Assembly (NCBI GenBank): GCA_025965195.1
Contig: JAOPXK010000013.1
Location: forward strand, 1 to 32,733
Source of the DNA: Marmoricola sp.
Lineage (GTDB): Bacteria; Actinomycetota; Actinomycetes; Propionibacteriales; Nocardioidaceae
Reading direction: 5' to 3'
Length of the DNA stretch: 32,733 nucleotides
The notes beneath the pieces are model-generated. The model worked only from the letters and a program-made list of their open reading frames with translations, was not told the origin of the DNA and did no database searches. The translations under genes and the position numbers were made by a program. This document shows, in pieces, positions 4,184 through 15,568 of this stretch (position 1 is its first letter; the number at the start of each line of letters is the position of its first letter).

Positions 4184-7100
4184 GTGCACCTGTCCCGTCG
4201 AACTGCTTCGCTCGCCCTCTCTGTCGTCCTTCCGTTGATGTCCCTGGCAGTGGTCGTCGGGCCTGCCCAGGCCACGACACCCGTCGGCAACGCTGCCGAC
4301 ATCAGGATCAGCGAGGTCTACGCCAACGGTGGCAAGGTCACTGGTGGGCCTGTCCATGACTTCATTGAGCTGACCAACACCGGCTCGAGCGCCGAGGACA
4401 TCTCGGGCTGGGTGCTCAAGGACGACACTGACTCGCACAACTGGACACTCGATCCGGGCACCGTGGTGCCGGCGGGCGGCTACCTCGCCGTATCCGTCGA
4501 CGACACCACCCATGCGGGCAACTTCGGCCTCGGTGGTGGCGGCGACGCGGCTCGGCTCTACCTGCCGAACGGCACCACGCTGGTCGACGAGCTCTACTGG
4601 ACCACGGCGAGCGCGGACCTGGCTGACGGCTGGTCGCGCTGTGCGAGCGCCCACGGCGGAGCGGGCGCGGTCGAGGCCCCAGCGACGCCCGGGGCGGCCA
4701 ACAACTGCCCTGCCGCGGCTGCGGTGGCGACCACGCTCCTGGGCCAGCTCAAGATCAACGAGGTGATGGCCGACAACGCGAGCGACACCAGCAGCGTGCA
4801 GCTGCCGGACTGGATCGAGCTGACCAACACCGGTTCGACCACCGTCGACGCCTCCGGCTGGATCCTGAGCGACAACAAGGCCTCGGACAAGGACGTTCTT
4901 CCGGCCGGCTCGTTCATTGCACCTCACGGCTACCTCGCGTACGCCGTCGGCGTGGCAGCTGGTGACCCGTACGCCGGCCAGGACCCCTTCATCGGCGTCG
5001 CCGGCAACACCGACTTCGGGCTGGGCAAGGGCGGCGACAACGCGGCGCTCGAGTTCCCCGACGGCACCGACGTCGACCGGTACTCGTGGAGCGCAGCGTG
5101 GACCCACGCGGCCACCGAGGGCCGTTGCCCCGACGGTGGCTCCGCGTTCCAGGTGACGTTCACCCCGACCGAGGGCGCCGCCAACGCGTGCGGGAACACA
5201 GCCGACGGGACCGTGAAGCTCAACGAGGTCGACGCGGCGCACGGCGTCATCGAGCTGACCAACACCGGGTCGGCGAGCGCGGACACCTCCGGATGGTTGA
5301 TCAAGGACGGTGGCGGAACGGTGTTCACGATCCCTGCCGGCTCGACGATCGCGGCCGGCGCCTTTGCGACGTACGACGTCAGCGGAGCGTTCACCTTCGC
5401 CCCGGCAGGTGACTCGGTGACGTTGCTGGACGGCAGCACGCAGGTCGACACCACCACCTTCACCGGAACGCCGGTGACGTCCTGGGGCCGGTGCCCCGAC
5501 GGCACCGGCTCGTTCGCGACCACCACAGCCGTCACCCCCGACGCAGCGAACAGCTGCGGCCCGCCGGCAGCTTCCGGGTACGCCGCCATCCGGATCAACG
5601 AGATCGAGACCAACGGCGACCCCAACGGCGACGCCATCGAGCTCGCGAACATCGGCAGCAGCGCCGTCGACGTCAGCGGCATGATCTTCAAGGACAACGA
5701 CGACACCGATGGTTACGCCATCCCGACCGGTACGTCGATCGCGGCCGGCGGCTTCCTGAAGCTCTCCGTCGCAAGCTTCGTGTTCGGTCTCGGTGCTGAC
5801 GACATGGCCCGCCTGTTCGCGCCCAACGGCACCACGCTGGTCGACTCCGACCACTGGACCGTCCACGAGGCCGGTGTGACCTACCAGCGTTGCCCGGGCG
5901 CGACCCAGGGCGTGGTCTTCACCAACGCCGAGGGCGAGCCGATGGTGAACTCGTGGGTCGGCACGCTCGGAGCGGCGAACGACTGCCGTCCGCCGATCCG
6001 GATCAACGAGGTCCAGGCCAGCGATCCGACCGGTGGCCCCGACTGGGTCGAGCTCACGAACATCGGCAACGCGCCGTACGACATCAGCAACTGGCTGATC
6101 AGCGACGACAAGGACAGCGACACCTTCACGATCCCGGCCGGCACCACCCTGCAGCCCGGTGCCTTCGTGACCTACGACCAGACCGCCTTCGGGCTGGGCG
6201 CAACCGGTGACGAGATGCGGCTCTTCCTTCCCGGCGCCAATGCGGGCGGCACCTACGACGCGAGCGACCTCGTCGACTCCTTCGTCTGGGAGACCCCGAA
6301 GCAGTCCTATGTGACTCAGAACGCCACGGGCTTCACCGGGACCTGGCCGGCCAACGCAACCTACGGTCGCTGCCCCGACGGCGTGGGTGCCTTCGTGGTG
6401 AACACGCCCGCAGCCGCGAGCGTCTCACCCGGCACCAAGGGTTCCGCGAACTCGTGCGCGGGAGTGATCACCCCGAAGGCCTGGCCCGGCCCGCAGGCCG
6501 TCTCGGCGGCCGACAACGTCGACTTCGGCCAGAACCTGTCCGGCCTCTTCTACGTCCCCGGCGCCACCCCGGCGCAAGACTTCATCTGGGGCATTGCGAA
6601 CGGCGACTCCGGTCTGCCCGGCAGCACCGGCCAGTCCGGCCTCTACAAGATCGTCAAGGACGGCAACGGTCTCTGGGGGCCGGCGGCCGGCTACGCGAAG
6701 GGGCTGCCGATCCACTACACCAACGGCCTGGGACAGCCGGACGCCGAGGGTGTCACGGCCATCGGCGGGCAGGTCTTCGTCGCCTCGGAGCGGGACAACG
6801 CTCACGACAACACCTCGAAGGTCGCGATCCTGCAGTACGACCCGAGCGCCAGCAGCGGCGGCCTCACCGCGACCCGTGAGTGGGACCTGCAGTCCGACCT
6901 CGGTCTGGGCACCGACGCGAACCTCGACCCGACCCAGGATGCGAACCTCGGTGCTGAGGGTGTCGCCTACGTTCCGGACAGCTACCTGACCGGCGCCGGC
7001 TTCGTCGACCAGAGCACCGGCGCGGCGTACGACCCGAGCAGGTATGGCGACCACCTGGGCGGCGTCTTCTTCGTTGCGCTGGAGAAGACCGGCAACCTGT

Positions 7101-8242
7101 ACGCCTATGTGCTCAAGACCGACGGGACCTTCCACCGGGTGGCGACAGTTGCGACCGGTTTCCCGACGATCATGGATGCCGCGTGGGACCCGTCCCAGGA
7201 CGCGCTGTGGGTCGACTGCGACAACTCCTGCCAGGGGCAGACGTCGATCCTGAAGCTCGACACCACGACTGGCGACGCCCAGCAGGGCAAGTTCGTCGTG
7301 ACCGACATCTACAACCGCCCGACGGGTGCCGTGGACAACCTCAACAACGAGGGCTTCACCTTCCAGCCGTCGACCGAGTGCGACCCGACCACGAGCACCA
7401 AGTCGGTCTGGTGGTCCGACGACAGCGACGATGGCGGCCATGCCCTGCGCACCGCGAAGGTGAACTGCGCCGCGGTGCCCGCCGGCAAGACAGGAGCAGC
7501 CATCAGCGCAGCGGTCAGCAGCACCGGAACGCTCTCGCCCGGAGGCTGGTACGCCGCGCCGGCGACCGTCACGTTCACCTGCACGACGACCGACGGTGTC
7601 CTCGCCAGCGCATGCCCCGCCCCGGTGAACCTCACCAACGGGAGTGCCCTGACCGCCACCGGCTCGATCACCGACACCCTCGGCAAGACGTACTCCGTGA
7701 CCTCGGCACCGGTCAGTGTCGACACCGTCAAGCCCACCGTCGCGATCACCGGGGTGGCCGCCGGCGCGACGTACGCCGGGGTCGGCCCGATGCCTGCGTG
7801 CACTGCCTCGGACGCGCTGTCCGGCCTGGCCGCAGCTTGCCGGATCAGCGTGGTGCGCACTCCGACCACGGTGACCGTGACTGCGACCGCCACCGACAAG
7901 GCCGGCAACGCGGCGACGGCGACCCTCGGCTACCACACGCTCGCGATCTCGTTCACCGGAGCGACCCAGGTGAACGGGATCTGGCAGGTGAAGTGGGGTA
8001 CGTCGTACCCGCTGGTGGTGTTGACCACGGACGCGACCGCACCGCGCTATGTGGCGCCCGGGCTCCTCGGCATCCTGTTCGGGATCGGCACGCCGATGCA
8101 GGCCGCGGGTGTCGTCGACGGGGTGCACGTCTGGACACTCCGGGTGTACCCGATCAGGCTGCTCAACCTCTTCGGAGGAGTTGACGAGTCGACCGTGCGC
8201 GAGGGCAGCCAAGCCATCACGATCAGGGCGCAGAGCCGCTGA
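4184..8242 (+). CDS. Secreted multi-domain protein: five lamin-tail domains plus phytase-like domain
   Basis: 1352 residues from a GTG start with AAGGAG eight bases before it. A Sec signal peptide (about residues 1-30, ending PAQA) is followed by five lamin-tail domains starting near residues 40, 190, 344, 470 and 605. Each opens with a variant of [IL]-[RK]-[IL]-[NS]-E-[VI] and then the I/V-E-L-[TA]-N-[TI]-G strand; the third is the shortest. Residues about 770-1096 form an 'esterase-like activity of phytase' domain (NVDFGQNLSGLFYV to WWSDDSDDGG), and about 1105-1352 contain Ig-like strands. There is no LPXTG motif or C-terminal membrane anchor, so it is probably released. Lamin-tail domains in secreted bacterial proteins are thought to bind DNA or surfaces; the phytase-like part suggests organic phosphate release. 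Exact activity is unproven. Confidence 0.88.
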   Translation: MHLSRRTASLALSVVLPLMSLAVVVGPAQATTPVGNAADIRISEVYANGGKVTGGPVHDFIELTNTGSSAEDISGWVLKDDTDSHNWTLDPGTVVPAGGYLAVSVDDTTHAGNFGLGGGGDAARLYLPNGTTLVDELYWTTASADLADGWSRCASAHGGAGAVEAPATPGAANNCPAAAAVATTLLGQLKINEVMADNASDTSSVQLPDWIELTNTGSTTVDASGWILSDNKASDKDVLPAGSFIAPHGYLAYAVGVAAGDPYAGQDPFIGVAGNTDFGLGKGGDNAALEFPDGTDVDRYSWSAAWTHAATEGRCPDGGSAFQVTFTPTEGAANACGNTADGTVKLNEVDAAHGVIELTNTGSASADTSGWLIKDGGGTVFTIPAGSTIAAGAFATYDVSGAFTFAPAGDSVTLLDGSTQVDTTTFTGTPVTSWGRCPDGTGSFATTTAVTPDAANSCGPPAASGYAAIRINEIETNGDPNGDAIELANIGSSAVDVSGMIFKDNDDTDGYAIPTGTSIAAGGFLKLSVASFVFGLGADDMARLFAPNGTTLVDSDHWTVHEAGVTYQRCPGATQGVVFTNAEGEPMVNSWVGTLGAANDCRPPIRINEVQASDPTGGPDWVELTNIGNAPYDISNWLISDDKDSDTFTIPAGTTLQPGAFVTYDQTAFGLGATGDEMRLFLPGANAGGTYDASDLVDSFVWETPKQSYVTQNATGFTGTWPANATYGRCPDGVGAFVVNTPAAASVSPGTKGSANSCAGVITPKAWPGPQAVSAADNVDFGQNLSGLFYVPGATPAQDFIWGIANGDSGLPGSTGQSGLYKIVKDGNGLWGPAAGYAKGLPIHYTNGLGQPDAEGVTAIGGQVFVASERDNAHDNTSKVAILQYDPSASSGGLTATREWDLQSDLGLGTDANLDPTQDANLGAEGVAYVPDSYLTGAGFVDQSTGAAYDPSRYGDHLGGVFFVALEKTGNLYAYVLKTDGTFHRVATVATGFPTIMDAAWDPSQDALWVDCDNSCQGQTSILKLDTTTGDAQQGKFVVTDIYNRPTGAVDNLNNEGFTFQPSTECDPTTSTKSVWWSDDSDDGGHALRTAKVNCAAVPAGKTGAAISAAVSSTGTLSPGGWYAAPATVTFTCTTTDGVLASACPAPVNLTNGSALTATGSITDTLGKTYSVTSAPVSVDTVKPTVAITGVAAGATYAGVGPMPACTASDALSGLAAACRISVVRTPTTVTVTATATDKAGNAATATLGYHTLAISFTGATQVNGIWQVKWGTSYPLVVLTTDATAPRYVAPGLLGILFGIGTPMQAAGVVDGVHVWTLRVYPIRLLNLFGGVDESTVREGSQAITIRAQSR

Positions 8243-8525: not shown

Positions 8526-9875
8526 TCAGTCAGTGGTACTGAGCGACCCCACCAGCTGCCGTTCGGGGGTGGAGGTGGCCGTGAGGTCTGCGCCGCGGGT
8601 CTCGGGGAGGAACATGACCGCGATGAAGCTCGCGATGCCGACCACCGTCATGGCGCCGGCCAGGACCCACGGGTCTCCGCCTGTCATGGACGTCAGCCCC
8701 ACCGCGATGACCGGAGCCGGCCCGGCGAGTGCAGCGCCCGGAACCTCGCGCCCCAGAGCCATGCCGGAGAACCGGTACCGCGCCGGGAACAGCTCGGAGA
8801 AGAACGCCGCCTGCGAGCCGAACATGGCCAGGCAACCGGCACCCATCGCCAGCGCGAAGGCGAGATAGATCGCCAGGGTGTTGCCGGTGTTCAGCAGCAC
8901 GAAGAACGGGAACGCCACCAGTGCGCAGACCGCCGAGACCGCGAGGTACACCGGTCGACGGCCGACCCGATCCGAGAGCGTGCCGACGAACGGGATCGCG
9001 AACGCGCCCACTCCACAGCCGATCAGCAGGGCGACCAGCGCGGTGCTCTTGTCGACGCCACGGTTGGCCAGGTAACCGAGTGCGAACGTCTGTACGACGT
9101 AGATGTTGAACGCGAGGGGGGTGTTGGCGACCATGACCAGGAGGAGCCGGCCGGGCATGTCAGCCAGGACGGCGGCGGCAGGCAGGCGGGTGCGAGCGCG
9201 CTGCTCCCTGAGCTCCTCGAACACCGGAGTTTCGGGGACCCGGAGGCGGATGGCCATGCCGATCATGATGACCACCAGGCTCAGCAGGAACGGGACCCGC
9301 CAACCCCACGTCATCAGTGCGTGCTCGGGCAGACGTGCCACGCACGCACTGACCGCAGCGGCCAGCCCGATGCCGAGGAACACCCCGCAGGCCGGCAGTG
9401 CGGTGAAGAAGCCACGCCTCTTGACCGGAGCGAACTCGGCGACCATCGTGACCGCGCCGACGTACTCGGCACCGACCCCGGCGCCCTGGAGCAGCCGGCA
9501 GATGACCAGCAGGACCGGCGCCCACATGCCGATGGAGCCGTACGTCGGCAGCAGGCCGATGAGCACGGTTGCCACGCCCATCAGCAGCAATGTCCCGACG
9601 AGGGAGAAGCGTCGACCGTACTTGTCACCCAGGTGGCCGAAGATGATCGCGCCGACGGGCCGGGCGAAGTAGCCCACGCCGAAGGTGGCGAAGGACGCGA
9701 CTCGACCGGCGGTGCTGGAGAACTCCGGAAAGAACAGCGAGCCGAAGACCAGTGCCGCGGCCTGGCCGTAGATGGCGATGTCGTACCACTCGATGAGGCT
9801 GCCGACCATGGTGCCGGGGATGAGCCGGCGTTTCGACTCTTCCCACAGGTCGGGCGTGCTGGATGTGACGTTCAT
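8526..9875 (-). CDS. MHS-family (metabolite:H+ symporter) MFS transporter
   Basis: 449 residues with about twelve hydrophobic helices. The N-terminal GSLIEWYDIAIYGQAAALVF motif is the hallmark of the metabolite:H+ symporter branch (shikimate, alpha-ketoglutarate, proline/betaine carriers). The loop motifs DKYGRR between helices 2 and 3 and DRVGRR in the second half are present, and RLLQGAGVGAEYVGA matches helix 4. It likely imports an organic acid across the cytoplasmic membrane. It is the last gene of a four-gene operon: its ATG overlaps the stop of the dehydrogenase gene by 4 bp (9872-9875). The substrate cannot be read from sequence but should be what the three upstream enzymes degrade. 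Confidence 0.9.
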   Translation of the reverse strand: MNVTSSTPDLWEESKRRLIPGTMVGSLIEWYDIAIYGQAAALVFGSLFFPEFSSTAGRVASFATFGVGYFARPVGAIIFGHLGDKYGRRFSLVGTLLLMGVATVLIGLLPTYGSIGMWAPVLLVICRLLQGAGVGAEYVGAVTMVAEFAPVKRRGFFTALPACGVFLGIGLAAAVSACVARLPEHALMTWGWRVPFLLSLVVIMIGMAIRLRVPETPVFEELREQRARTRLPAAAVLADMPGRLLLVMVANTPLAFNIYVVQTFALGYLANRGVDKSTALVALLIGCGVGAFAIPFVGTLSDRVGRRPVYLAVSAVCALVAFPFFVLLNTGNTLAIYLAFALAMGAGCLAMFGSQAAFFSELFPARYRFSGMALGREVPGAALAGPAPVIAVGLTSMTGGDPWVLAGAMTVVGIASFIAVMFLPETRGADLTATSTPERQLVGSLSTTD

Positions 9876-10858
9876 GAGACCTTCTTCGTCTTCTGGGTTA
9901 AATGATGCCCGGTCGCGCCGTCGCGGACGACGTTGCGCAGTGATTGACCGGACTCAAGCCGGTCGATGTTGTCGGCGATGACTGCGTATCGCCGGCGGGG
10001 AAGCTCATGGGTCCAGGCCGAGGAGTGCGGTGTGCACCAGGCGTTGGGGAGGCCGGCGAAGTCGAACGTCGACGGGGCGACCCGGTCGTCGCTGCCAGTC
10101 GGGTAGGAGTACCAGACGTCCAGCACCGCGCCGCCGATCGTGTTGGTGCGCAGGGCGTCGTACAGCGCGGCCTCGTCGAGGATCGGTGCGCGGGCGGCAT
10201 TGATGACCACCGCCGTGCTCTTCATCCGAGCGAACGCGGCAGCGTCGAGCATGCCCCGAGTGTCGTCGGTGAGTGGACACGTCACGACCACGAAATCCGC
10301 ACGGTCGAGCAGCTCGGGCAGCTGGCTGGTCGGCCACGGTGCCACCTGGGCGTGCGGGCTCGCGTAGTCGTCGACGGCGACGACCTGCATGCCGAAGGCG
10401 GAGGCGCGATCGGCGATCGCCCGGCCGATCCGCCCGTAGCCGACGAGTCCGAGCGTCTTGCCCAGGATCTCGCCGTGCGGGATGCGGTGCCGGTAGACGT
10501 CCGACCACGACTCGGCCGAGAACGACGCGCGCAGCGAGGAGAACCGGATCTCCCACTCGAGCATCGCGGCGAGTACGTACTCCGCGATCGGCGCCTCGTG
10601 CTCGAAGACGTTGCAGACCGTGGTGCCGGGTGCGAGACCGGCCATCTTGATCCCGTCGAGTCCCGCACCGGGTACGTGCAGGAGCGGGAACTCCGGGGCC
10701 GCCTCGCGCGAGAAGCGCAAGGACACGACCACGTCGGCGTCCTGCAGCTCGGCGTCGAAGCGGTCGTCGTACGCCGCCTCCGCCGGCAGCGCCACGATCT
10801 CGTGGCCCGGCAGCTCGTCACGGTGCGTGGCCGCCTCTCCGATCAGCACGACCCTCAT
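9872..10858 (-). CDS. D-isomer-type 2-hydroxyacid dehydrogenase family protein
   Basis: 328 residues. The NAD-binding Rossmann motif GYGRIG is at 140-145, followed by a substrate-binding half. The catalytic Arg is seen in NAARAPI (Arg223) and the catalytic His in CTPHSSAWT (His278). The usual catalytic Glu of the LDVFexEP segment is not seen: here it reads LDVWYSYP (246-253). I recall a family branch with LDVW-x-x-YP, so this may be a natural variant with different chemistry. The enzyme would interconvert a 2-hydroxy and a 2-oxo acid in the cytoplasm. Four-bp overlaps with both neighbours show translational coupling. Specific substrate unknown. Confidence 0.87.
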   Translation of the reverse strand: MRVVLIGEAATHRDELPGHEIVALPAEAAYDDRFDAELQDADVVVSLRFSREAAPEFPLLHVPGAGLDGIKMAGLAPGTTVCNVFEHEAPIAEYVLAAMLEWEIRFSSLRASFSAESWSDVYRHRIPHGEILGKTLGLVGYGRIGRAIADRASAFGMQVVAVDDYASPHAQVAPWPTSQLPELLDRADFVVVTCPLTDDTRGMLDAAAFARMKSTAVVINAARAPILDEAALYDALRTNTIGGAVLDVWYSYPTGSDDRVAPSTFDFAGLPNAWCTPHSSAWTHELPRRRYAVIADNIDRLESGQSLRNVVRDGATGHHLTQKTKKVS

Positions 10859-11934
10859 ACCGGTCGCCGCCCGGTGTAAGCATCGCGGAGGATGCCGGCG
10901 ACGGCCTGCTCGGTGACCGGCACCGGGCTGACGGCGCCGTCACTCTCCGTCTCGAGGATGATCGCGGTCGCCCGGTCGAGGTCGGCCTCGGTCAGACCGA
11001 CCTCCGCGAGGCTGGCCGGCAGGCCGGACGAGACAAGCAGGTCGTGCACGGCACCGCCCAGGTGATCGGTCTTGAACGCCTCCGCGATGGGTCCGAGGTC
11101 GACGTGCTGCTCGAGGTAGCCCGTGACGTGCGGCAGCACGATCGCGTGGGCCAGGCCATGCTCGACACCGAAGCTGCCGCCGAGCGCGTGCGCCACCCCG
11201 TGCTGCAGGGCGAAGCCTCCGGTCAGGGCCGCACCGCCGAGATAGGCGCCGTAGAGCAGCTCGTTGCGACTCTCCAGTCGCGCCGGGTCCGCCAAAACCT
11301 CGGGCAGCGCGCGGGCGATGACCTCGGCGCCCTCCACGGCGGCCGCAGCCAGCAGCGGGCTGAGGGTCGGCAGATAGAGCGCATCGATGCAGTGCGCCAG
11401 CGCGTTCATCGCGCTGGACGCGCTCACCGAGGGCGGCAGCCCGGTGGTGAGCTCTGCGTCGTAGACGACCGTCGAGGCCAGCATGTTCAGGCTGGTGTGC
11501 ATGCGCTTCACGCCGTCGATGGTGATGCCGCAGAACCCGGTCATCTCCGAGCCGGAGTAGGTGGTGGGAATGTTGATGATGGGCATCCCGAGGTCGAGCG
11601 CGATCCCCTTCGACAAGCCAGTGGCGGCCCCTCCGCCGACACTGATCAGGCAGTCGGCGTCGTGGGCCTTCTCGCGACCACGGCGGGCCAGCTCGATCGG
11701 CACCTGCGAGATCGCCTCGTCGAGGATGCCGATGCCCAGGTCACCGACGAGGTCGCGGACCTTCTCGGCCAGCCGGACCCGGCCGGGTGTGCTGATGATC
11801 AGGGCCCGCTCGGCGCCGAGCCGGGTCACCTCGTCGGCGATCCCGGCGACGGAGCCGGGTCCGAAGACGACCCGGGGCGGGGTGGCGTTGTAGACGCCAC
11901 CGGGGTACTGGAAGCTCCGCATCGTGGTCCTCAC
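10855..11934 (-). CDS. Iron-containing alcohol dehydrogenase, maleylacetate reductase-like
   Basis: 359 residues, the usual length for maleylacetate reductases. Family marks: VVFGPGSV near the N-terminus, the nucleotide-binding SVGGGAATGLSKGIAL, IPTTYSGSEMT, and the helical C-terminal half with NALAHCIDALY and HGVAHALGG followed by EHGLAHAIVLPH, which carry the histidines used as metal ligands in the wider Fe-ADH family. Classic maleylacetate reductases finish hydroxyquinol or chlorocatechol breakdown, but no ring-cleavage dioxygenase is present. The partner genes instead point to a sugar-acid-type route, so this copy may reduce a different oxo-acid or aldehyde. ATG overlaps the stop of the upstream dehydratase by 4 bp. 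Confidence 0.85.
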   Translation of the reverse strand: MRTTMRSFQYPGGVYNATPPRVVFGPGSVAGIADEVTRLGAERALIISTPGRVRLAEKVRDLVGDLGIGILDEAISQVPIELARRGREKAHDADCLISVGGGAATGLSKGIALDLGMPIINIPTTYSGSEMTGFCGITIDGVKRMHTSLNMLASTVVYDAELTTGLPPSVSASSAMNALAHCIDALYLPTLSPLLAAAAVEGAEVIARALPEVLADPARLESRNELLYGAYLGGAALTGGFALQHGVAHALGGSFGVEHGLAHAIVLPHVTGYLEQHVDLGPIAEAFKTDHLGGAVHDLLVSSGLPASLAEVGLTEADLDRATAIILETESDGAVSPVPVTEQAVAGILRDAYTGRRPV

Positions 11935-13130
11935 CAGTTCGCGATCGTGCCGTCGGCAAGCACGGCCGAACGGCTGTGCATGACTTCGGGCTTGTAGGGG
12001 TGCTTGGCGGCCTCGAGCTCGTTGATCTCGACACCGAGCCCGGGAGCGGTCGGCACCTGCCAGTAGCTGCCCTCACGGATCATCGGGGTGCTGACGACGT
12101 CGTCGTACCAGGGAACTGCGCCGCTCATCTCCTCCTGGATCACGAAGTTGGGGGTGCTGACATCGAAGTGCAGGGCGGCTGCGCCGGCGATCGGACCGTT
12201 GGGGTTGTGCGGGGCGATGCCGATGCCCTCGGCTTCGGCGACCGCGGCGATCCGCTTGCCCTCGAGCAGGCCGCCGGTGTGGTTGAGGTCGGGCTGCGCA
12301 ACGTGCATCGCCTTGGCTCGCAGCACCGGCATGAACTCGGTGAGGCCCACGAGTCGTTCGCCCGACGCGATCGGACAGTTGGCCCGCTGGGTCACCTGGA
12401 GAAGCGCTTCGGTGTCACCGGGCTGCACCGGCTCCTCGCAGAACATCGGCTCGTACGGCGCGAGCGCCTCGATGTAGCCGAGCGCCGCCGCGGTGGACGC
12501 CGGCCGGCCGTGGAAGTCGATCATGATGTCGACGTCCTCACCGACGGCCTCACGCAACGTACGCATGAGCGAGTCGACGTGGCGGCGGTCGGCGATCCCG
12601 GTGAGGTGACCGCTGTAGGGGATGAACACGACCTTGAGCGCGTCATAGCCCTCGGCGACGACCTTCTGTGCCTGGTCGCGCAGCTTGCCGTGGTCGAACG
12701 TCTCGTACACGGCGCGCATGTCGCCCAGGCCGAGGTGCGTGTAGACCCGGACCTTGTCACGCACCTGTCCGCCGAGCAGGCGCCACACCGGGAGGCCGAC
12801 GCTCTTGCCGAAGATGTCCCACAAGGCGTGCTCGATGCCACTGATCGCGGTCGCACCGATGATGCCCAGCCGGTAGTAGCTGTGCTTGGTCATCGCCTGC
12901 ACGGCCTGCTCGATGTTGCGCGGGTCCAGTCCGGTCACCAGCGGCGCCAGGTCGCTGATCGCGCCCGTCACGGCCGCGGTCTTCCAGTTGAGGCTGGCCT
13001 CGCCCCAGCCGTACAGGCCGTCCTGGTCAGTGAGTACCTTCACGAGGATCCAGTTGCGCATCTCGGCGTTGACGACGAGCGTCTCGATGCCGGTGATGGT
13101 CAACCGGTCGGCGGGCACGGGGTGGTTCAT
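11931..13130 (-). CDS. Enolase-superfamily sugar-acid dehydratase (galactonate dehydratase-like)
   Basis: 399 residues; mandelate racemase/muconate lactonizing enzyme fold with an N-terminal capping domain (to about 130) and a TIM barrel. Metal ligands are visible as Asp205 (MIDFHGR), Glu232 (FCEEPV) and Glu258 (ASGERL). His207 in the DFHGR motif and His308 in APHNPNGP correspond to the two catalytic histidines of D-galactonate dehydratase (DgoD). The likely reaction is loss of water from an acid sugar to give a 2-keto-3-deoxy acid. First gene of the minus-strand operon and divergent from the LysR regulator; GGAGACC precedes the ATG closely. Substrate specificity within this superfamily cannot be assigned from sequence alone. 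Confidence 0.87.
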   Translation of the reverse strand: MNHPVPADRLTITGIETLVVNAEMRNWILVKVLTDQDGLYGWGEASLNWKTAAVTGAISDLAPLVTGLDPRNIEQAVQAMTKHSYYRLGIIGATAISGIEHALWDIFGKSVGLPVWRLLGGQVRDKVRVYTHLGLGDMRAVYETFDHGKLRDQAQKVVAEGYDALKVVFIPYSGHLTGIADRRHVDSLMRTLREAVGEDVDIMIDFHGRPASTAAALGYIEALAPYEPMFCEEPVQPGDTEALLQVTQRANCPIASGERLVGLTEFMPVLRAKAMHVAQPDLNHTGGLLEGKRIAAVAEAEGIGIAPHNPNGPIAGAAALHFDVSTPNFVIQEEMSGAVPWYDDVVSTPMIREGSYWQVPTAPGLGVEINELEAAKHPYKPEVMHSRSAVLADGTIANW

Positions 13131-13203
13131 TGGTCTCCTTTGGTGTGGTCGCGATCACAGTAGGTAGCCGTGATTGATGACGTCCAACTCTTTCTATCTC
13201 TTG

Positions 13204-13223
13204 AATAAGTAGGCATACTTATT
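13204..13223. promoter_or_regulatory. Perfect palindrome in the LysR/dehydratase promoter region, probable LysR operator
   Basis: AATAAGTA (13204-13211) and TACTTATT (13216-13223) flank GGCA. It is strikingly A+T-rich against the surroundings, contains a T-N11-A pattern as LysR-type proteins prefer, and lies 25-45 bp before the LysR start and about 75 bp before the divergent dehydratase start. Confidence 0.65.
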
Positions 13224-13248
13224 ACTGCGCCTGACAAAGGACCCCAGA

Positions 13249-14142
13249 ATGGACACCTTCCGGCTCGAATGCTTCGTCGCCCTGGCCGAGGAGCTGCACT
13301 TCCACCGCGCCGCCGAGCGCTGTCACATCACCCAGCCGGCGATGAGCCAGCAGATCCGGCGGCTCGAGGAGGAGCTCGGCGTCCAGGTTGCGACGCGGAC
13401 CAAGCGGTCGGTGTCGCTGACCCGTGCCGGCGAGGTCTTCCTCGGCGAGGCACGCAAGACCCTGCGCCAGATGGAGCAGTCGATCTCCCTGGCCCGTCGC
13501 ACGGACAGCGGCGAGATCGGCCAGTTGCGGGTAGGAGTCACCGCCCCCGCGTTGTACGTCCTGTTTCCGGAGATCGCCCGGCGCTTCGCGCACCAGCTCC
13601 CGGGCATGGGGCTGGTCGTGAAGGAACTGACCACCGCGCAGCAGGAGGGAGCCCTGCGCGACGGTGACATCGAGGTCGGGGTAATGCACCCGCCACTCGA
13701 TGATCGCAGCCTGTTCTGCCAGGTGGTGGCCGAGCCGGCGTTCCACCTGGCGCTGCCGACCGGTCACCGGCTGGCGCACCGCGAGAGCATCGCGTTGGCA
13801 GAGTTGGCGAATGACGGGTTCGTGCTGTTCCCACGTGAGATCGGCCCACAGCTGTACGACACGATCATCGGGCTGTGCCAGTCAGCCGGTTTCAGTCCCA
13901 AGATCGCCCAGGAGGCCCATCCGGCGCAGTCGATCATCGCCTTCGTGTCCGCCGGTGTCGGCATCGGGTTGATTGCGTCACCGGTGCAGCGCCTCGACCG
14001 TCCGGGGGTGGTCTACGTGCCGATCGACGGCCCGCGTCCCTACCTGAGCCTCGGAGTGGCGTGGCACCAGGAGACCCGGTCGCCCGCCGTGGGAACGTTC
14101 ATCCAGACCGCCCGCGAGGTCGGTGCCCAGCTGGAGGAGTGA
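13249..14142 (+). CDS. LysR-family transcriptional regulator
   Basis: 297 residues, the standard LysR length. The N-terminal winged helix-turn-helix (1-60; MDTFRLECFVALAEELHFHRAA, ITQPAMSQQIRRLEEELGV) is followed by a linker helix and a periplasmic-binding-like effector domain (about 92-297, from LRVGVTAPALYVLFPEIA). The AAAGGA site before ATG supports the start. Transcribed divergently from the dehydratase operon with a palindrome between them, the classic arrangement for a regulator that senses the operon's substrate or an intermediate and also controls itself. The likely effector is a carboxylic acid. Confidence 0.92.
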   Translation: MDTFRLECFVALAEELHFHRAAERCHITQPAMSQQIRRLEEELGVQVATRTKRSVSLTRAGEVFLGEARKTLRQMEQSISLARRTDSGEIGQLRVGVTAPALYVLFPEIARRFAHQLPGMGLVVKELTTAQQEGALRDGDIEVGVMHPPLDDRSLFCQVVAEPAFHLALPTGHRLAHRESIALAELANDGFVLFPREIGPQLYDTIIGLCQSAGFSPKIAQEAHPAQSIIAFVSAGVGIGLIASPVQRLDRPGVVYVPIDGPRPYLSLGVAWHQETRSPAVGTFIQTAREVGAQLEE

Positions 14143-14286
14143 CCGGGCCTTCCGCGTGTCCAGCTCCTGAACAAGTGGGCCACGGCCATAACGTGACCCT
14201 GTCAGCCTCGTTTGCTGTGTGAGAAGAAGTTTCGGATCAGTTCCTGCGAGTCCTCCGGGAATGCAATGACTCAGGGTGGGGCCCAC

Positions 14287-14892
14287 ATGCAGCAGACGTT
14301 CAAATCGCTCGCCGGCATCATCGTCGTGCTCACGATCGGCGCCTTCATGCTGGCGGCGCCCGCACAGGCCGACTATCCCTCGCAGTCCGAGACGAGTTGC
14401 ACGGTGGACGTGTCGGTCGCGACGCAGGGCGGGTCAGTCGTAGCCACCTTCGAGGTCGCCTCCGGAGTGGGAACTCCTTCGGGCGATGCGATCATCCAGT
14501 TCAAGGGCCATCCGCCCACCCGGGTCCCGCTGGTCAATGGTGTGGCGCGAGTCCCGGAGCCGGACGTCAAACCGGGCGAGGGTTGGACGGTCACTGCCAG
14601 CTACGCACCGACGGCGGGAAGCGCTTTCAAGTCGTCTCAGTGCAGCGCGTCGCTTGACCCCACAGCCGGTGGTGGCGGCACCAGTGTGTCCCCCCCGGAG
14701 GTCGGCGGCGGTGGTGGCGGCACCAGTGTGTCCGCCCCGGAACTGGGCGGGATCCTGCCCAACACCGGCGGCCCCTCGCTGTACCTCTTCGCGCTCGCCG
14801 TCCTGATGTTGGCCACCGGCCTGATGTTCATCCAGGTTGGCCGTCGCCGCCCGGTGCTGAGCACGGTCGCCACGGTCCGGCGCCATCGCTAG
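14287..14892 (+). CDS. LPNTG cell-wall-anchored surface protein
   Basis: 201 residues from ATG at 14287 (an in-frame ATG at 14266 is an alternative). A signal peptide (GIIVVLTIGAFMLAAPAQA) leads a short extracellular domain (about 30-125, two cysteines at 38 and 119) that looks like a single Ig-like beta domain. A Gly-rich linker has two copies of GGGGTSVS-x-PE. Then come LPNTG (157-161), a hydrophobic helix and a basic tail (GRRRP). This is a standard sortase sorting signal. The next gene is a sortase, so the two probably act together. Function of the exposed domain is unknown; adhesion or a structural role is possible. The linker carries a 42-bp DNA repeat. Confidence 0.82.
   Translation: MQQTFKSLAGIIVVLTIGAFMLAAPAQADYPSQSETSCTVDVSVATQGGSVVATFEVASGVGTPSGDAIIQFKGHPPTRVPLVNGVARVPEPDVKPGEGWTVTASYAPTAGSAFKSSQCSASLDPTAGGGGTSVSPPEVGGGGGGTSVSAPELGGILPNTGGPSLYLFALAVLMLATGLMFIQVGRRRPVLSTVATVRRHR
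14668..14733 (+). repeat. 42-bp period repeat in the linker of the LPNTG protein
   Basis: Twenty-four identical bases recur at 14668-14691 and 14710-14733, a 42-bp (14-codon) period coding for GGGTSVS. In-frame repeats of this sort can change copy number by slippage and so alter linker length. Confidence 0.6.
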
Positions 14893-15034
14893 GAAGTCGA
14901 ACCGGGCCGGGGGTTATCCGCGCCCGGCACGATCACGATCACGCACCCTCGTATTTCGTACCGGCTGGGTTCTCCTCGCCGGCGGCGTCGGCCTGCTGGG
15001 CTGGCTCGCCTGGCTCTACTTCGGCACCAACTGG

Positions 15035-15568
15035 GTGTCCAGGCACCACCAGCAGGAGACCACCCAGAAGGTGAGGCACGCCTGGGAGATCCACGCCAAG
15101 GCACCTGCGAACGCCCTGCTCCTGATCCCACGTTTCGGAAAGAACTATGTCGTACCCGTCATCGAGGGCGTGGACCCCGATGACCTCGCCGCTGGCGTCG
15201 GGCATTTCCCTGGCACCGCTGGCCCGGGTGAGGTCGGAAACTTCGCCCTCGCCGGCCACCGGGTGACCCACGGCGAACCGTTCCGCGACATGCCGTCCCT
15301 GCGGAAGGGCGACAAGGTGATCGTCGAAACGCGACACACGACGTACACCTACCGGCTCGACACCGGTGGCGCCGACCTGACCGTGCCCTTCACGTCGATC
15401 TGGGTGATCGCCCCGATCCCCCTGAACCCCGATCCCAACGGCGTCGGGCCGGCGATCGACAAGTCGCACCGGCTGCTGACGCTGACCACCTGCTCCGAGC
15501 TGTTCCACACCGACAACCGGCTGATCGCCTTCGGGCACCTGGTCGGGAAGACGCCGACCGGGCAGTAG
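15035..15568 (+). CDS. Class E sortase (N-terminus extends upstream without a visible start codon)
   Basis: From GTG at 15035 the protein has 177 residues with the sortase triad: His75 (LAGHRVTHG), Cys153 (TTCSELF) and Arg162 (DNRLIAFG). The TTC motif and overall layout fit class E sortases of high-GC Gram-positives, which cut LxxTG signals and join proteins to the cell wall. The same frame upstream encodes an obvious membrane helix (VLLAGGVGLLGWLAWLYF, about 14970-15025) that class E sortases need, yet no ATG, GTG or TTG occurs between the in-frame stop at 14858-14860 and 15035. The real start is therefore either a rare codon (an ATC at 14885 overlaps the previous gene's end) or hidden by an indel. 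Likely substrate: the adjacent LPNTG protein. Confidence 0.8.
   Translation: MSRHHQQETTQKVRHAWEIHAKAPANALLLIPRFGKNYVVPVIEGVDPDDLAAGVGHFPGTAGPGEVGNFALAGHRVTHGEPFRDMPSLRKGDKVIVETRHTTYTYRLDTGGADLTVPFTSIWVIAPIPLNPDPNGVGPAIDKSHRLLTLTTCSELFHTDNRLIAFGHLVGKTPTGQ

Follow-up and report, generated by a model that had tools for sequence, protein, structure and literature searches.

What is broken down by the products of the gene cluster at positions 8526–14142 of the window (the whole 32,733-nucleotide stretch of Marmoricola sp. DNA analysed here, which is an entire contig, C116)? The original prediction described an operon encoding a dehydratase, an iron-type alcohol dehydrogenase (Fe-ADH), a 2-hydroxyacid dehydrogenase (HADH) and an MHS permease, together with a divergent LysR gene. 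It held that the set fitted no known pathway and might serve an undescribed carboxylic acid. This view was supported: no pathway matched by name or in the literature searched, and the operon probably serves an unassigned carboxylic acid. The gene set was not described in the open-licence literature, which was searched by combined enzyme names and by pathway and context, subscription papers not being searchable. Each part can be assigned to a known family; it is the combination of the parts and their altered active sites that were not found there. We propose, with moderate confidence, that the three enzymes constitute a mobile module for the catabolism of an oxidised sugar acid (an aldarate or a keto-aldonate), which would be induced by the LysR protein and served by whichever transporter is locally available.

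A co-inherited set of three enzymes

The operon lies on the reverse strand. It comprises the genes for an enolase-superfamily (MR/MLE) acid-sugar dehydratase resembling galactonate dehydratase (11931–13130; PF13378/PF02746 and PRK14017), an Fe-ADH of the maleylacetate-reductase branch with a GTG start (10855–11934; Pfam Fe-ADH), a D-2-hydroxyacid dehydrogenase of a subfamily with Tyr252 and the motif LDVWYxYP (9872–10858; Pfam 2-Hacid_dh_C) and a putative organic-acid/H+ symporter, an MFS permease of the MHS type (8526–9875; Pfam Sugar_tr/MFS_1). The divergent LysR-type regulator gene occupies 13249–14142 on the forward strand (Pfam LysR). Each of the three operon junctions is a 4-bp overlap (GTGA, ATGA and ATGA). 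Pfam assigned all five genes to these families and the best NCBIfam models agreed, several of them under their cut-offs; the genes, families and overlaps of the original prediction were all borne out.

Peptide patterns from the window Fe-ADH alone were used to scan 84,980 species genomes. The scan returned 29 loci, 25 alphaproteobacterial and four from Burkholderiales (betaproteobacterial) by record title, with Fe-ADHs 56–65% identical to that of the window. No actinobacterial locus was among the 29, in a pattern scan that detects close relatives only and may leave out records very near the window. The HADH, dehydratase and Fe-ADH genes were adjacent in all 29 loci, in the order HADH–dehydratase–Fe-ADH compared with dehydratase–Fe-ADH–HADH in the window, and the dehydratases of these relatives were 73–79% identical to the window enzyme. 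Three HADH copies were broken: a 39% fragment in locus L026, a copy split into two open reading frames in L027 and one cut by a contig end in L024. The operon with its divergent LysR gene is real, and the adjacency of the same three enzymes in every locus found with the Fe-ADH alone is more than chance.

The trio had a LysR homologue (48–60% identical) as its neighbour in 21 of the 29 loci and a GntR gene in seven, L024 being cut. No homologue of the window permease at 30% identity or more was found in any of the 29. The co-inherited unit is the three enzymes, with the LysR gene in those 21 loci, and the permease lies outside it. The original prediction had taken all four operon genes to be co-evolved and had suggested a search for the four-gene set in other genomes; co-evolution held for the enzymes and, in part, for LysR, and failed for the permease.

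The window permease reached 368 bits against the MHS symporter model TIGR00883, under the cut-off of 443. Transporters are swapped between loci, TRAP or TTT genes replacing the permease. In 28 of the 29 loci such genes lay beside the three enzymes or the accompanying LysR gene, and L027 was cut off before that point. One type was a DctP/DctQM TRAP system, with DctP in 14 loci (L024 was cut within the system and in L021 only DctP was found). A different DctPQM occurred in four loci, TctBAC genes followed the trio in six, and a divergent TctA/TctC pair lay beyond the LysR gene in four. The TRAP binding protein of the Azospirillum locus L012 was considered as a guide to the substrate and set aside, its kin being widespread and located beside an AMP-binding enzyme. 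The closest solved structure was PDB 4oan (E 6e-131), which we take to have been modelled with acetolactate; it says little about the substrate here and was not used. In one family, of which 198 genomes were searched, 83 encoded kin of this protein (E<=1e-110), and in all six regions taken from the 83 genomes an AMP-binding-enzyme gene lay beside the transporter (checked with Pfam in two). Regions L109–L114, where a binding protein of the L012/4oan type accompanies a fused TRAP permease and an AMP-binding enzyme, represent another uptake unit. The second type of TRAP binding protein gave one weak match.

The distribution of the operon was narrow. In the window's phylum, a search of 396 genomes gave no Fe-ADH match at E<=1e-85 outside the own genome, where the Fe-ADH was the single match of its kind at E<=0.001; 295 other genomes of the phylum had no dehydratase match at E<=1e-110. 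Among 97 near relatives of the window genome, eight Fe-ADH matches were seen at E<=1e-60 and these were only 39–44% identical. Fe-ADH matches (E<=1e-85) were similarly rare around the proteobacterial carriers. The Azospirillum class gave four in 385 genomes; one of these came from the centre genome, and two reached no more than 46% identity. The Castellaniella class gave one in 274 genomes, again that of the genome at the centre of the sample. In the dehydratase tree, the 30 operon copies were separate from three outgroups (support 99/99), and the window enzyme grouped with the Azospirillum/Skermanella clade (96/97) on a long branch flagged as unsure by the tool. Since no second copy was found in the genomes sampled from the window's phylum, horizontal transfer is likely, and a proteobacterial donor is the simplest explanation for the presence of this operon in an actinobacterium. 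The GC content of the operon equals that of the window, therefore either the transfer is not a recent one or it came from a donor of high GC content.

Conserved and altered catalytic residues

The best named family for the dehydratase was PRK14017 (galactonate dehydratase), with 305 bits, just missing the cut-off of 311. The residues D205-F206-H207, E232/E233, E258, D281 and H308 were invariant in alignments of 30 and of 13 rows, and these catalytic positions aligned with those of 3rr1, named as a putative D-galactonate dehydratase. By analogy with galactonate dehydratase, we assume that H207 and the H308–D281 pair act as acid/base and that D205, E232/E233 and E258 bind the metal. The window enzyme has both the His of the DFH motif and the His-Asp dyad of the galactonate-dehydratase type, and on these alignments it retains the catalytic residues of that type. 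Its scores were far under the glucarate and talarate/galactarate NCBIfam models. The three outgroup dehydratases (54–62% identity) adjoined TRAP genes and had no HADH or Fe-ADH beside them. The structure model of the dehydratase was poor (pLDDT 69) and was not used.

The situation was different for the Fe-ADH. The nearest solved structures were maleylacetate reductases, with E values down to 7.5e-77, and the original prediction had named the enzyme after them. In the maleylacetate reductase PcpE, His172 and Lys238 are essential and the signature is LHHKLCHTLGG (PMC5741723). The operon Fe-ADHs have (Q/H)HG(V/L)AH in place of HHKLCH, with QHGxAH in the window. Every one of the 30 operon Fe-ADHs has Gly at the site of the essential Lys, and 28 have Gln at that of the first His, whereas the equivalent of His172, H181, is kept in all 30 (this last position was matched through alignments that did not include PcpE itself). 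Outside the operon, HHK(L/I)CH was present in 11 of 12 branch relatives, which are all the fetched Fe-ADH homologues under 50% identity; in the remaining one, L005, the pattern was not matched. Second Fe-ADH copies with the maleylacetate reductase signature were found in two of 14 operon genomes, those of Methylobacterium crusticola (L056) and Azospirillum canadense (L057). In L061, the wider region around one 46% match (L059), the Fe-ADH homologue adjoins a thiolase gene, which suits a maleylacetate/oxoadipate route. As the signature and the essential Lys are absent throughout, the operon Fe-ADHs form a separate clade that should not be named maleylacetate reductase, and the function first suggested for this enzyme was not supported.

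These residues also bear on the idea that the operon encodes an aromatic or chlorocatechol-type pathway, with the MR/MLE enzyme acting as a cycloisomerase and the Fe-ADH as a maleylacetate reductase. The joint occurrence of MR/MLE, maleylacetate-reductase-like and LysR genes would suggest it by family name. However, the dehydratase scored 112 bits against the cycloisomerase model (cut-off 335), the essential Lys is missing, and no ring-cleavage or dienelactone hydrolase gene was present among the identified neighbour clusters. We rejected this pathway, which is hardly credible on this evidence.

The HADH matched PF02826 (E 8e-48) and contains the NAD-binding domain. Its model (pLDDT 88) matched 5mh5 in Foldseek (E 8e-24), a D-2-hydroxyacid dehydrogenase fold. 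R223 and H278 are kept and, in the alignments, Tyr252 occupies the position of the catalytic Glu, giving Arg-Tyr-His instead of the Arg-Glu-His triad. The motif LDVWYxYP was found in all 27 aligned rows (the window and 26 loci); of the copies left outside the alignment, those of L024 and L027 also showed it and that of L026 did not. As a control, six operon genomes gave 83 PF02826 matches, six of them the operon copies, and among the 30 paralogues given as loci 29 had Arg-Glu-His and one Arg-Pro-His.

The same Tyr was present in four HADH relatives encoded on plasmids (37–41% identical), which were those opened among 59 plasmid records with a match. Each adjoins an MR/MLE gene whose product is 30–33% identical to the window dehydratase (L067 7721–9888, L068 6917–9900, L069 5700–9975 and L070 6961–10934). 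On the Diaphorobacter plasmid (L067) the Tyr-type gene lies with TctC, and a KdgD gene and an aldehyde dehydrogenase gene are found within about 8 kb on the other strand. The neighbours are an SDR gene in Paroceanicella, and an SDR and an L-idonate 5-dehydrogenase gene in Hartmannibacter and Pseudosulfitobacter. It is possible that the Tyr-motif subfamily is a general partner of acid-sugar dehydratases. Clustering of MR/MLE, SDR and L-idonate 5-dehydrogenase genes is expected of a ketogluconate/idonate pathway, and these three plasmids favour an alternative in which keto-aldonates would be funnelled into a common route: the HADH would act as a 2-ketoaldonate reductase, the Fe-ADH as a 5-keto reductase or dehydrogenase and the dehydratase on gluconate or galactonate, followed by a 2-keto-3-deoxygluconate kinase and aldolase. 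KdgD would then be irrelevant. The near-threshold galactonate dehydratase score of the dehydratase is in line with this alternative, which we consider rather unlikely.

A proposed route for an oxidised sugar acid

Downstream sequence was available for six of the GntR-type loci. Each of them contained KdgD-like, DUF1805-like and LldD-like FMN hydroxyacid dehydrogenase genes, and four of the six also contained an HbpS-like gene. The KdgD-like protein of L011 was closest to the keto-deoxy-galactarate dehydratase 4ur7 of A. tumefaciens (E 1.7e-76). The DUF1805-like protein, under the Pfam cut-off, is encoded at 14029–14898 in L011, 14062–14901 in L023 and 7950–8756 in L073. On a haloarchaeal plasmid a relative of it adjoins a RuBisCO-like protein and a four-carbon acid sugar kinase, and the neighbours in three of 13 plasmid records showed no common theme. 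In the Marmoricola genome itself a KdgD-like gene (334 bits, cut-off 374) was located on contig C128, in one run (L146 5565–10687) with an aldehyde dehydrogenase gene, a gene for a thiamine-diphosphate enzyme lying between the two. The best named hits of the aldehyde dehydrogenase were ketoglutarate-semialdehyde dehydrogenase (KGSADH) and 2,5-dioxovalerate dehydrogenase, at 500 bits with cut-offs of 770 and 750. This run also has a divergent LysR gene, its product being 32% identical to the window LysR. Because KdgD-like genes occur in six operons and in the C128 run of the own genome, we can suggest how the pathway may end.

From the observed gene content, the co-inheritance and the conserved and altered catalytic residues, we infer a scheme with all its reactions, their order, direction and stereochemistry, and the class of the substrate. 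In this scheme the MHS permease would take up the acid. The HADH would reduce a 2-keto acid to a 2R-hydroxy acid, and the Fe-ADH would act on another carbonyl or hydroxyl group, possibly as the reverse step of an epimerisation by oxidation and reduction. Together they would convert the acid into the 2R,3S-dihydroxy form accepted by the dehydratase, a stereochemistry that we assume from galactonate dehydratase. The dehydratase would abstract the proton at C2 and eliminate the hydroxyl at C3, yielding a 2-keto-3-deoxy acid. This would be converted by a KdgD-type dehydratase/decarboxylase and then by KGSADH to 2-oxoglutarate or, where KdgD is absent, enter general keto-deoxy-acid enzymes. An inversion at C2 would be consistent with the hydroxyacid oxidase that six operons encode beside the hydroxyacid dehydrogenase. 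A bolder version is doubtful, namely that the HADH, with Tyr for Glu, and the Fe-ADH, with HGxAH and no maleylacetate-reductase Lys, catalyse new reactions and form a redox epimerase or isomerase pair feeding the galactonate-type dehydratase, in an undescribed route for a rare hexarate or keto-aldarate carried by a cassette moving between phyla.

The downstream genes also weigh on the alternatives. The original prediction had noted the lack of ring-cleavage, aldolase and kinase genes; none was found in the conserved set, a statement now refined by the KdgD-like gene inside six relatives. This gene and the TctBAC genes inside six operons speak against the keto-aldonate funnel, as does the lack of kinase and aldolase genes among the conserved neighbours, the rest of these genomes not having been searched for either.

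Several observations count against a sugar-acid module with a KdgD-type end. KdgD-like genes were found in the fetched flank of none of the 21 LysR-type loci. Five of the six operon copies were under the KdgD cut-off (332–372 versus 374 bits, the sixth reaching 375.5), and they may act on another substrate. Twelve of 16 operon genomes, including the own genome, had a KdgD homologue, seven being above the cut-off; such a homologue was absent (E<=1e-60) from Azospirillum canadense, Siculibacillus, Methylobacterium crusticola and a Xanthobacteraceae genome. KGSADH homologues (E<=1e-120) were absent from Siculibacillus and M. crusticola among five genomes tested. As KdgD, and in two genomes also KGSADH, is lacking, the 2-oxoglutarate end is not universal. 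On the Diaphorobacter plasmid, KdgD is nearer to a second HADH with the ordinary Glu and is not tightly tied to the Tyr-type enzyme. The kin of the 4oan-type binding protein adjoin an enzyme of the acyl-CoA-synthetase type, which does not point to sugar acids. Finally, with their altered residues the HADH and the Fe-ADH may catalyse other reactions than those proposed.

The four genomes without KdgD would agree with the keto-aldonate funnel. The occurrence of the trio without KdgD or KGSADH homologues at these thresholds, and transporters of the C4-dicarboxylate and tricarboxylate types, would also suit a tartrate-type C4 pathway. There, HADH and Fe-ADH would interconvert tartrate isomers via oxaloglycolate and the dehydratase would produce oxaloacetate, so that no further enzymes are needed. 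The KdgD-like, LldD-like and DUF1805-like genes of the extended operon have no role in such a pathway, which we regard as quite improbable. A possible order of likelihood for the substrate is an aldarate, then a keto-aldonate, then tartrate.

Genomic setting and relation to known systems

The divergent intergenic region of 118 bp (13131–13248) contains a perfect 8-bp dyad, AATAAGTA-GGCA-TACTTATT, at 13204–13223, a candidate LysR operator. An inverted repeat with 8-bp arms arose in 29 of 2000 dinucleotide shuffles, and the window dyad was not common to the 21 LysR loci in which it was sought. Another dyad, ATGAA-TTCAT (L012, L013, L019, L025 and L035), was discounted as an operator since it falls on the HADH start codon and is coding sequence.

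The genome has a size of 4.0 Mb in 200 contigs, with 98% completeness and 1.4% contamination. The flanking genes of the window include glnE of the PRK14109 type (1430 bits, cut-off 625), glnA, panB and a class E sortase gene, and we take the glnE and sortase types to be actinobacterial. Together with the GC content, these genes point to an actinobacterial host, probably of the Nocardioidaceae. Because the operon sits between genes of these types, contamination is an unlikely source of it. The GC content at third codon positions was 0.88–0.92 across all five genes from permease to LysR. Within the genus, 23 of 24 genomes, among them the own genome, had a homologue of the sortase next to the operon; the five regions around it that were compared had no other flank gene in common, and no empty site could be defined. 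The stretch 14212–15568 contains a gene for a probably secreted protein, in which a hydrophobic tail is preceded by an LPNTG motif and which had no match in Pfam or NCBIfam; the class E sortase gene follows it. On the other side, positions 4184–8242 encode a probably secreted protein of 1352 amino acids with five lamin-tail-domain stretches (PF00932).

The operon can be viewed as a compact, transferable catabolic cassette, the carriers of which include several Azospirillum and Bosea species. Two of its enzyme subfamilies are mislabelled by their family names, maleylacetate reductase and 2-hydroxyacid dehydrogenase, as their catalytic residues differ throughout. The identity of the substrate would give a name to both, as well as to the broader group of Tyr-type dehydrogenases that neighbour MR/MLE enzymes.

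Compared with known systems, the dehydratase is closest to D-galactonate dehydratase (DgoD-like, PRK14017), to which it matches over its full length with the DFHGR, EEP, GER, QPDLNH and APHNP motifs. A Skermanella plasmid relative, 60% identical to the window enzyme, reaches the family cut-off (312 versus 311 bits). The window enzyme differs by its own conserved N-terminal motifs, VVNAxMRNW and NWKT, and its partner genes are not the kinase/aldolase pair for 2-keto-3-deoxygalactonate of DgoD-like systems. The Fe-ADH shares with the maleylacetate reductases (PcpE, GraC; PDB 3jzd, 3w5s and 3hl0) an Asn instead of the first metal-ligand Asp of Fe-ADHs, whereas their TYAGSE is TYSGSEMTGFCGIT in the operon enzyme. 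The HADH has the fold and the catalytic Arg and His of the D-2-hydroxyacid dehydrogenases (PF02826) and differs by the replacement of Glu with Tyr. As in galactarate/glucarate catabolism, a KdgD-like gene is found in six related operons and a run of KdgD-like and aldehyde dehydrogenase genes in the own genome; in contrast to that pathway, KdgD is missing from some operon genomes and the window operon has two extra dehydrogenases.

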